A DNA stretch of 9,072 bases from Candidatus Auribacterota bacterium (GCA_016932965.1 JAFGBW010000101.1:1-9072), one strand, 5' to 3'; numbered from the stretch's first letter, positions 4,711 to 7,709 are shown. The notes: generated by a model from the letters alone, not told the origin. Numbers and translations are program-made.

Positions 4711-4757
4711 GTTATGTCTTTCCGGTTGATAAAAATCCCGCTATAGCACCGGTTATC

Positions 4758-4921
4758 TAAAATATTTTTTCACCACGGAGGTCACAGAGAGCACAGAGGA
4801 AAATTAGAAAAATTTTGAGTCATGAGTTGGAATAATGAGATTTCTTTTAACTCAAAATTCAAAACTCAACACTCATAACTTCTAATCTCCGTGCTCTCTG
4901 TGTCCTCCGCGGTGAAATTAT
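4758..4921. repeat. Palindromic intergenic element, CACCACGGAG family (atpD-atpC gap)
   Basis: Arms 4768-4798 and 4887-4917 are complementary at 28 of 31 positions. The left arm reads TTTCACCACGGAGG, then CACAGAGAGCAC. A second inner stem (ATTAGAA 4803-4809, TTCTAAT 4880-4886) and further ACTCAAAA/TTTTGAGT complementarity (4850-4857 with 4813-4820) make this a nested hairpin about 150 bases long. It sits entirely between atpD and atpC and has no coding frame or transposase. Both ends match the element at 520-645, and the inner AACTCAAAATTC motif recurs in the element at 6432-6579. Confidence 0.8.
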
Positions 4922-5004
4922 TTCTATTAAAATTCCCTGAATGGCCAGATTGCATGATTCCCTCACCTGACTTTGGCTCTCATTGTTGTCATGCTATTGC
5001 TGCA

Positions 5005-6408
5005 TCAGACGCTCTGCAGATTTTTGGCCTTTTCAAAAGCCTCATTGATAGCGCCAACCATATAAAAGCTCTGCTCAGGAAGCATGTCGCATTCACCGTT
5101 TAATATTTTTTCAAATCCAGTGATGGTGTCCTCCAGACGCACGTATTTCCCCGGAGTTCCGGTGAACGTCTCGGCAACAAAAAACGGCTGGGACAGAAAA
5201 CGCTGAATTTTTCTGGCTCTGGCCACTGTCAGTTTATCTTCTTCACTCAGTTCGTCCATTCCCAAAATGGCGATGATATCCTGAAGGTCCTTGTATTTCT
5301 GGAGCACCATTTGCACTCTCCTGGCCACCTGATAGTGTCTGTCCCCGATCACTCTCGGGTCCAGTATGCGGGAAGTGGAATCCAACGGATCCACGGCAGG
5401 ATAAATGCCCAATTCCACGATTTTCCTGGAAAGAACGGTCGTGGCATCCAAATGCGAAAAAGCAGTAGCCGGAGCCGGATCAGTCAGATCATCCGCAGGA
5501 ACATAAATGGCCTGAACGGAAGTGATGGACCCTTTTTGCGTGGAAGTGATCCGCTCCTGCAGAGCGCCCATCTCGGTTGCCAGAGTCGGCTGATAGCCGA
5601 CTGCCGAAGGCATGCGTCCCAAAAGAGCCGATACTTCGGAACCGGCCTGGGTAAAACGGAAAATGTTATCAATGAATAAAAGCACATCCTGTCCCTCTTC
5701 ATCCCTGAAGTATTCAGCCGTGGTCAAACCGCTCAGTCCCACCCGCAGTCTCGCTCCCGGCGGTTCAGTCATCTGGCCGTAAATGAGGGCCGTCTTGTTG
5801 ATCACGCCTGATTCAGTCATCTCATGATACAGATCATTGCCTTCCCTGGTTCTTTCTCCCACTCCGCAAAACACAGCCGTTCCGCCATGCTCTGCGGCAA
5901 TATTCCTGATGAGTTCCATGATGATAACGGTCTTACCCACCCCGGCTCCGCCGAATAATCCGACCTTTCCGCCTTTTGCATAAGGGGCCAGAAGATCAAT
6001 GACTTTAAGCCCGGTTTCAAACATTTCTGTCCGGGTATTCTGATCTTTGAGCGTAGGGGCGCTTCTGTGAATCGGAAGATGCTGCTTGGCCTGAATCGGC
6101 CCTTTCTGATCCACCGGCTCTCCCAAAACATTGATGATCCTTCCCAGAATCTGGGGCCCTACCGGCACCATGATCGGTTTTTTCGTGTCAACGGCCCTGG
6201 CTCCCCGTTTTAATCCGTCAGTCGGGGCCATGGCCACGCAACGGACTTTGTTGTCCCCCAAATGCACGGCCACTTCCACCACCACCTTCTTCTCCTCTTT
6301 CTCATCAAAGAAAACCTGAATGGCATTATTGATTTCAGGCAAATGTTCGGAATCAAATTCCACATCCACCACAGGCCCCATGATCTCCACCACTTTTCCC
6401 TGTATCAT
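5005..6408 (-). CDS. atpD: ATP synthase F1 beta subunit (catalytic)
   Basis: This complete 467-residue beta subunit is the nucleotide-hydrolysing/synthesising member of the alpha3beta3 head. All key motifs are present: the P-loop GGAGVGKT (153-160, with Lys159 and Thr160), the catalytic-glutamate segment [11 protein letters not shown] (184-194, Glu185), Walker B LLFIDN (243-248, Asp247), and the DELSEED loop (385-391) that contacts gamma. The N-terminal beta-barrel starts directly ([18 protein letters not shown]). The ATG is preceded by AGGAG at 6416-6420, 7 bases away, a stronger initiation site than that of atpG. Length and order are normal. It is separated from atpG by 200 bases and from atpC by 294 bases, unusually long gaps for this operon, each filled by an inverted-repeat element. 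Confidence 0.99.
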
Positions 6409-6431
6409 CGGCTAACTCCTTTTATTTTTCT

Positions 6432-6579
6432 ATAACCACGAAATTCACTAAAATCACGAAAAAAATAGGAAAAATCTAAAGTTGTGAATTTTCAGAACCG
6501 GGTGAAATGAGAAAATCATATTCCAACTCAAAATTCAACACTACTCAGTCTTTCCTTCGTGTTTCCCGTGGTTTTTAAT
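6432..6579. repeat. Palindromic intergenic element, AACCACGAA type (atpG-atpD gap)
   Basis: The left end (AACCACGAAATTCACT, then AAATCACGAA, 6434-6460) and right end (TTCGTGTTTCCCGTGGTT, 6556-6573) are inverted, with imperfect complementarity. Matches are best at AACCACG/CGTGGTT and CACGAA/TTCGTG. Between them, AACTCAAAATTCAACACT (6525-6542) repeats the core of the element at 4758-4921 in the same orientation, so the two elements are related despite different tips. It lies between the atpD start and the atpG stop codon and carries no gene. Confidence 0.65.
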
Positions 6580-6608
6580 CATTGATCTCCCTGCTATTGA
6601 TCAGATAA

Positions 6609-7472
6609 CTAACCCTTCAACGCCTCGGCCGTACCAACGATATCAATCAATTCCCTTGTGATAGCCGACTGCCGTGCCCTGTTGAAATCCAGACGTAACG
6701 TCCGGATCAGCTCAGTAGCATTGTTGGAAGCCAAATCCATGGCAGTCATTCTGGCAAAAAATTCTGAGGTCTGGGATTCTAACAGCATGGCATACACTTT
6801 CATCTGCAGATAATAAAGAAGCAATTTTTCCAGAACAGCCTCTTTCTCAGGTTCAAAGAGATAATCCCTTGCCGCCGCACCCTGATGCCGGAGAACAGAG
6901 GGATCGAACGGTAGCAATTTGATGACAGGAATGGTTTCTCCTTCCCTGGGTTTGTAACGGGTATGGATCACCTTCACCTCGTCTACCCGGCCTTGGTGAT
7001 AGAATTCCAGAATCAGCCCCAATAATTCCGCCGCCTTTGTAAAAGAAAGACCCGTATAAAAATTGTTTTTCTCCAGAAGCATGGGCAGATGGACCCGTTT
7101 TAACTGAACGTTGCCTTTCTTCCCGATTCCAAAAATCGTCGTTTTCTCCTTTCCGGCAGATTCAGCGGCTTTTAAGAATTTTCTGACCACATTGCTGTTG
7201 AAGCCCCCGCACAACCCCCTGTCGCCGGTCATGATCATAAAACCGCATCTTTCAACCGGCCGCTCATTCATCAGAGGAACTTTCAATTCCGGATGACAAC
7301 ATAAAATGCCTGCCAATATCTCTTCCAGCTGCGTCAAAACCTCTTGGGCGAACTGCAAAGAGGATTCGGCCTTAAGGAGCTTGGCCGCTGCCACCATTTT
7401 CATTGCCTTGGTGATCTGCTCCACGTCCAGAACTGATTTGATCCGGTTTCGTATGTCCTTTAAAGTCGGCAA
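6609..7472 (-). CDS. atpG: ATP synthase F1 gamma subunit
   Basis: This complete 287-residue gamma subunit is the rotating central stalk that links the c-ring to the alpha3beta3 head. The two conserved ends form the coiled coil: PTLKDIRNRIKSV...QITKAMKMVAAAKL at the N-terminus, and MTAMDLASNNATELI (242-256) with RARQSAITRELIDIVGTAEA at the C-terminus. The Rossmann-like middle carries MTGDRGLCGGFN (81-92). The start codon is TTG: there is no in-frame ATG near the family-typical N-terminus, and AAGGA at 7481-7485 lies 8 bases upstream. A weak start codon fits the 1:3 ratio of gamma to alpha and beta, though that is inference. The upstream gap to atpA (223 bases) carries three perfect hairpins, and a palindromic element follows the gene. 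Confidence 0.98.
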   Translation of the reverse strand: MPTLKDIRNRIKSVLDVEQITKAMKMVAAAKLLKAESSLQFAQEVLTQLEEILAGILCCHPELKVPLMNERPVERCGFMIMTGDRGLCGGFNSNVVRKFLKAAESAGKEKTTIFGIGKKGNVQLKRVHLPMLLEKNNFYTGLSFTKAAELLGLILEFYHQGRVDEVKVIHTRYKPREGETIPVIKLLPFDPSVLRHQGAAARDYLFEPEKEAVLEKLLLYYLQMKVYAMLLESQTSEFFARMTAMDLASNNATELIRTLRLDFNRARQSAITRELIDIVGTAEALKG

Positions 7473-7480
7473 AAGCTGAT

Positions 7481-7485
7481 TCCTT
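7481..7485 (-). promoter_or_regulatory. Ribosome-binding site that fixes the TTG start of atpG
   Basis: AAGGA on the minus strand lies 8 bases before TTG at 7470-7472. With no ATG or GTG in frame between the site and the conserved PTLKDIRNRI, it supports a TTG start for the gamma subunit. Confidence 0.75.
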
Positions 7486-7510
7486 AGAATTTTTAAAAGA
7501 GATTAAATAT

Positions 7511-7546
7511 GCGGGAAAATCTTTTGTGGACAAAAGATTTTCCCGC
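7511..7546. repeat. Perfect 16-bp hairpin with 4-base loop
   Basis: GCGGGAAAATCTTTTG (7511-7526) pairs perfectly with CAAAAGATTTTCCCGC (7531-7546) around TGGA. It lies 38 bases upstream of the atpG start, inside the presumed atpA-atpG transcript. On the minus strand it is followed by ATATTTAATCTC rather than a T-run, so it is a poor fit to an intrinsic terminator. Confidence 0.85.
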
Positions 7547-7570
7547 ACCCTTTTCAAAAAACTTTATACA

Positions 7571-7605
7571 CGCTTTCATGGGAACATTCTGTTCCCATGA
7601 AAGCG
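7571..7605. repeat. Perfect 16-bp hairpin with 3-base loop
   Basis: CGCTTTCATGGGAACA (7571-7586) pairs perfectly with TGTTCCCATGAAAGCG (7590-7605) around TTC. Its sequence is unrelated to the neighbouring hairpin at 7511-7546, yet the architecture is the same. It lies in the atpA-atpG gap. Confidence 0.85.
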
Positions 7606-7685
7606 AAATAACCCTGAATATAAAATGCAATCCTTATCTATAAACGTTCGAACCTTGTGATTGTTCAGAATACTCATTCCAACAA

Positions 7686-7709
7686 TATCCGCTTTTTAAA
7701 AAGCGGATA
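7686..7709. repeat. Perfect 24-base palindrome across the atpA stop codon
   Basis: TATCCGCTTTTT (7686-7697) is followed immediately by its exact complement AAAAAGCGGATA (7698-7709). The atpA stop codon (7696-7698 on the minus strand) sits at the centre, and the right half encodes the last residues (LSAF). It is the third perfect inverted repeat in the atpA-atpG gap. As RNA, the bases near the centre would form the loop. Confidence 0.85.

Follow-up and report, generated by a model that had tools for sequence, protein, structure and literature searches.

Why should the genes of an ATP synthase, which ordinarily follow one another closely, be separated by long gaps that each hold inverted repeats? 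This question was raised by a window of 9,072 nucleotides, the whole stretch of DNA analysed here, which is an entire contig (C167) of a 3.14-Mb genome (300 contigs, 92.6% complete) from the sole member of its genus and family among the compared genomes. An earlier note on this DNA had offered two readings: palindromic elements tolerate or prefer insertion in transcribed spacers, or the stems serve the operon by setting the dosage of the alpha and beta subunits against gamma and epsilon. Our analysis partly supports that interpretation, and in its favoured form the gaps are probably long through three independent insertions of dispersed palindromic elements, two of them related to GxxExxY elements and the third REP-like (Table 1). 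The most interesting result lies beyond the atp cluster itself: the arms found in two of the gaps appear to belong to a widespread association with GxxExxY genes.

Table 1 Genes, gaps and repeat elements of the window discussed in the text
Feature	Position	Strand	Details or basis
Second element with C-D-type arms	525-640		arms CACCACGGGGTCACGGAG ... CTCCGTGCTCTCCGTGTCC; unrelated gap; fold and repeat search
atpC (epsilon), short form, 82 aa	4462-4710	-	gene call and family match
C-D gap	4711-5004		294 bp
C-D gap element, MITE-like palindrome, 150 nt	4768-4917		arms 4768-4798 and 4887-4917
atpD (beta)	5005-6408	-	gene call and family match
D-G gap	6409-6608		200 bp
D-G gap element, MITE-like, 144 nt	6434-6577		arms 6434-6461 (AACCACGAAATTCACTAAAATCACGAAA) and 6554-6576
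atpG (gamma), TTG start	6609-7472	-	gene call and family match
G-A gap	7473-7695		223 bp
G-A two-hairpin element, family HP	7494-7610	+	hairpin 1, 7510-7547; CCCTTTTCAAAAAA linker; hairpin 2, 7571-7605
Perfect palindrome, 24 nt, spanning the atpA stop codon	7686-7709		inverted-repeat search; no other copy seen
atpA (alpha), 5' end lost at contig end	7696-9072	-	gene call and family match

Long atp gaps look derived and contain inverted repeats

The gene calls gave the gap sizes that the earlier note had claimed. Its statement that all four reading frames are intact needs a proviso: the families of all four genes were confirmed, but atpA is truncated at its 5' end because the window is the whole contig, and atpC is short. 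The atpC product covers positions 1-79 of the 130 in the epsilon model, and its C-terminal helical domain appears to be missing.

All three gaps contain inverted repeats, as had been claimed, and these exceeded those of shuffled sequence. The RNA-fold z-scores were -14.0 for C-D, -2.5 for D-G and -10.0 for the G-A element, and the best inverted-repeat scores were 33, 15 and 18, respectively, against 8-11 after shuffling; the D-G repeat is the weakest of the three, yet its arm occurs elsewhere in the genome. An Rfam search of the gap structures found nothing above the gathering score, the sub-threshold matches being for the most part to plant miRNA models, which any long hairpin would fit, and a search of the gaps for terminators and promoters found no more than in shuffles.

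The ordinarily tight packing of F1 genes was borne out by outgroup atp operons, whose median gaps were 22 bp (A-G), 40 bp (G-D) and 10 bp (D-C). Among the 30 outgroup operons with all three gaps measured, none had even two gaps of at least 190 bp, and the long gaps of the source genome therefore look derived. The measured atp operons of phylum-level relatives showed a single gap of more than 100 bp.

To place these gaps in their genome, we used a 429-kb sample of unselected contigs (C1-C40) with genes from an in-frame hexamer caller. In this sample, 33% of the co-directional gaps were at least 190 bp long and about 15% contained an inverted repeat with a score of at least 14. Under independence, about two runs of three such repeat-bearing gaps are expected genome-wide, and none occurred among the 90 consecutive co-directional triples of the sample. 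The presence of repeats in three of three atp gaps is thus a mild local excess, picked post hoc. The contrast that had been drawn with the pilin cluster of the same window holds in part, since that cluster is indeed tight, but repeats are present at 525-640 and 1244-1307 in other gaps of the window.

The three gaps hold members of different dispersed repeat families

The arms of the C-D element are 31 nt long, 90% complementary and built of CACGGAG/CACAGAG units (an example of this arm type is CACCACGGAGGTCACAGAGAGCACAGAG), and they enclose a palindrome of the AACTCAAAATTCAAAACTCAACACTCATAACT type that is common to many copies. Searching the source genome with the C-D sequence gave 62 matches, and short motif patterns undercount this family in the genome sample. 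The arm of the D-G element, which stops just short of the atpD ribosome-binding site, occurs at about 10-11 further places. In both elements, each arm consists of about three 7-nt units of the CACGGAG/CACGAAA type at a spacing of about 9 nt. Like the bacterial MITEs that have been reviewed (Correia/NEMIS, RUP and ERIC; PMC2229807, PMC10969869), the two elements are short, non-coding and intergenic, have terminal inverted repeats and many dispersed copies, and their transcripts would fold into long stems. Unlike those MITEs, their apparent partner is a gene for a PD-(D/E)XK nuclease and no known transposase, and each end is an array of 7-nt units whose sequences fall into many families.

Several further structures were seen around such elements. 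The element at 525-640 encloses two hairpins not seen in the C-D element (ATGCTCATCATGCC... and GCAGGCGTTTCGCCTGC), as if small palindromes were nested inside it. An insert of 70-80 nt (ACTCGAAGCCAGGAAAGCGAAGAGGGACGACTTGAGTC...GCAGTCC) lies within a C-D-type element at locus L070 (4470-4700), where other copies are uninterrupted, and similar sequences recur at L010 and L036. The repeat at 1244-1307, upstream of the pilin-like operon, is A+T-rich, with 25-nt arms (92% complementary) and a 14-nt loop.

The G-A gap holds a member of a different family, which we call HP. Its two hairpins are both perfect and differ from each other in sequence, and the CCCTTTTCAAAAAA linker between them is conserved. 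A covariance model gave 92 overlapping matches in the source genome, corresponding to about 60 distinct places, and found no copy in any of 38 relatives, two of which belong to the same order. None of 55 copies lay within a called gene. Ten stem pairs had both sides changed among 11 copies (0 of 500 shuffles), so that the fold as such is either maintained or regenerated. Hairpin 1 was located 6-38 nt past a same-strand stop codon in 27 of the 46 placed copies, compared with a null mean of 6.4 and a maximum of 16 in 5000 simulations; this placement reflects either selection for a role at 3' ends or targeting, and because it is non-random the family may have a function. The atp copy is an antisense exception, as its hairpin 1 faces the atpG start at a distance of 37 nt.

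GxxExxY genes lie between inverted arms

The source genome has five GxxExxY (TIGR04256) genes or remnants, one of which is intact. The intact gene sits between CGCAGAG arms, which are not of the exact C-D type, and the remnants (including those at L036 and L037) adjoin CACGAA-type arms, among which is the D-G arm type. GxxExxY was also present in 21 of the 38 relatives, where the unit families at its flanks comprised CACAGAG, CGCAGAG, CGCAAAG, CACGGAT, CGCAGAT, ACAGGAT, GCGGATT and others. Inverted flanking arms with a score of at least 14 were found at 45 of 48 GxxExxY genes; the rate was 13.5% when flanks were mispaired and 12% around other small genes. Furthermore, the count of three-unit arms correlated with that of GxxExxY genes over 39 genomes (Spearman 0.81, p 3e-10), and the median arm count in genomes without GxxExxY was 0. 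In several genomes the arms far outnumber two per gene (193 arms against 8 gene matches in genome G028), indicating that most arms belong to short forms.

G028 has many such short forms, apparently recent; of 20 loci read, 19 were complete elements with two arms and a length of 77-97 bp and one measured 268 bp, with A+T-rich flanks. The arm units were constant, and the 2-nt spacers between them paired in 29 of 80 cases versus 36 after shuffling; as these elements were found via the unit pattern, information comes only from the spacers and from those unit positions that were free to vary. With constant units and spacers that pair at chance level, the elements seem to conserve a recognised sequence and not a perfect stem, and this looks like recognition of DNA by a protein rather than an RNA stem.

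The GxxExxY genes are members of TIGR04256/PF13366 above the curated cut-offs, and by family the product is a PD-(D/E)XK nuclease (PF13366, PDDEXK_3, with a sub-threshold match to Cas4). Its nearly or fully invariant residues comprise G-x-x-E-x-x-Y, D, E-x-K and Q-x3-Y, with D70 and K82 invariant and E80 nearly so; we take Q-x3-Y to be a RecB/Cas4-like motif. The protein is thus a predicted nuclease carrying the D ... E-x-K active-site residues, and a sequence comparison with solved structures found no relative. Our literature search, which covered few subscription journals, found no description of flanking arms or of an element around GxxExxY, the only two mentions of the family being incidental, and six arm sequences occurred in no paper of the literature searched. 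The association is apparently undescribed, and an earlier description may exist.

Arm class is co-inherited with the GxxExxY protein

On a tree of 49 GxxExxY proteins, the arm class (AG or AT, after the last two letters of the units) changed once, compared with a mean of 13.5 changes after shuffling (0 of 500 shuffles as low). Finer unit classes were also clustered (14 changes versus 27.6 shuffled), and host family was nearly random (30 versus 33.7). The AG/AT split was still explained by a single change after the addition of six plasmid genes from named organisms of other phyla, with sources in Bacteroidota, Alphaproteobacteria, Gemmatimonadota and Fusobacteriota obeying it; one of the six, from Gemmatirosa, is frame-broken and two have arms in the same orientation. 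Same-orientation rather than inverted repeats flank GxxExxY on the Fusobacteria and Persicobacter plasmids (L270 and L271). The copy of Sphingomonas parapaucimobilis lies between fabD and fabG, which is another core operon spacer.

Two congeneric genomes, G024 and G031, could be compared at an orthologous site. The site spans 605 nt in G024 and 143 nt in G031, where the GxxExxY element is absent; in this one orthologous pair, the 143 nt are unrelated sequence, not a rejoined target, and a second, unrelated repeat near the G024 site is likewise absent from G031. G024 also contains a short form bearing the arms of its GxxExxY element. Both genomes have many copies of a further dispersed hairpin family (for example L186, 460-630; CCACGGGCTTGCGCCCGTGGCTA... 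and CCCCCTGCGGGGGCTT) that is unrelated to the GxxExxY arms.

Proposed origin of the atp gaps and alternative explanations

Given the arm-gene linkage, the copy-number correlation and the co-inheritance of arm class, the elements inserted in the C-D and D-G gaps are probably related to GxxExxY elements but non-autonomous. From the linkage, copy number and co-inheritance we also infer mobility by GxxExxY, including the cutting itself. The elements probably serve no purpose in the atp operon. The full mobile form would be a single GxxExxY gene between inverted arms, each of about three 7-nt units (C-R-C-N-R-A-K) at a spacing of about 9 nt. The nuclease, alone or with host repair enzymes, would recognise the unit array at both ends and cut there, after which the element would be copied or moved. 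Forms that are shorter but share these arms would be mobilised in trans, the C-D and D-G elements being such MITE-like forms, and the G-A element would be a REP-like repeat of two hairpins that is specific to this lineage. Insertion into operon spacers would be tolerated because it spares stop codons and ribosome-binding sites. Such tolerance, one of the two readings in the earlier note, is well supported by the copies of dispersed families in all three gaps, by the outgroup operons and by the comparable gaps elsewhere in the genome.

Nucleases of this fold are known to act in mobility, as in TnsA of Tn7 and the PD-(D/E)XK homing endonucleases. TnsA, unlike GxxExxY, needs TnsB, and homing endonucleases differ in that they occur within introns or inteins and have no arms of this kind. 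To our knowledge, there is no experimental precedent for a 120-aa nuclease as the sole mover. More broadly, we put forward tentatively, as a suggestion with somewhat less than even chances, that GxxExxY genes may represent the autonomous members of a mobile-element class that is widespread and so far undescribed, in which nuclease and units would co-evolve in AG and AT classes with many sub-families and yield operon-spacer MITEs across phyla. If the link holds, a large share of the anonymous inverted repeats in uncultured bacterial genomes could be assigned to a named partner gene, with a mechanism open to testing, and the common annotation "GxxExxY protein" would gain a likely function. Because arms and nucleases both fall into two classes, direct swap experiments become feasible. 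The case is also a caution that stems between operon genes, however strong and even in the textbook atp operon, may be mobile debris rather than regulation.

The stems could instead serve the atp operon as RNA processing or stability hairpins that fix the subunit ratio from between the cistrons. All three gaps do have strong stems, a combination absent from the sampled triples, and the neisserial NEMIS have been proposed as substrates of RNase III within transcripts (PMC2229807). However, the atp gaps hold different families, each with copies scattered elsewhere, about two such triples are expected across the genome under independence, outgroup operons do without such gaps, the G-A copy is antisense to the usual placement of its family, and the arm unit spacers of G028 lack covariation; we therefore regard an operon role as very unlikely. 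The more specific proposal of subunit dosage found no support, because the families differ, members of them adjoin genes unrelated to atp and the G-A copy has the antisense orientation that is unusual for its family. It is possible that the elements have a chance local RNA effect on the atp transcript. GxxExxY might also be a passenger, that is, a cargo or defence gene between arms belonging to another transposase that acts in trans. Although the transposase survey of the source genome covered Y1_Tnp only, from one host family or phylum to the next the arm class goes with position on the GxxExxY tree, a pattern more to be expected for a protein with its recognition sites than for cargo, so that a passenger status seems unlikely.

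For the G-A element, insertion as a REP-like repeat has to be weighed against the idea that HP is a domesticated 3'-end element (a REP-like terminator or mRNA-stabilising structure), of which the atp copy would be one used or misplaced example. The placement of hairpin 1 after stop codons and the covarying stems speak for such a role, but a mobile element targeting 3' ends predicts the same pattern, the copies are limited to one lineage, the hairpin of the atp copy is followed by no proper U-tract, and this copy faces the start of atpG, not a stop; domestication is possible but rather doubtful. HP resembles REP/BIME/REPIN sequences (PMC3116915, PMC2817692) in being palindromic, extragenic, high in copy number and near gene 3' ends, and its palindromic, intergenic, high-copy character would fit mobilisation by a RAYT. 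It differs from REPs and REPINs in having two different hairpins with a conserved linker in place of two inverted copies of one REP, in a hairpin 2 that is replaceable by an unrelated palindrome, and in the lack of a RAYT. A search of the 92.6% complete source genome for Y1_Tnp (PF01797) found none and was positive in the E. coli control, so HP is not an ordinary RAYT-REP; RAYT/Y1_Tnp was rejected as the mover, and RAYT-mobilised REPs are a highly improbable account of the repeats.

The replacement of hairpin 2 was seen in two HP copies (L032, about 1420-1500, and L071, 7900-7950), where an unrelated and again perfect palindrome takes its place, which suggests that palindromes are regenerated or swapped.
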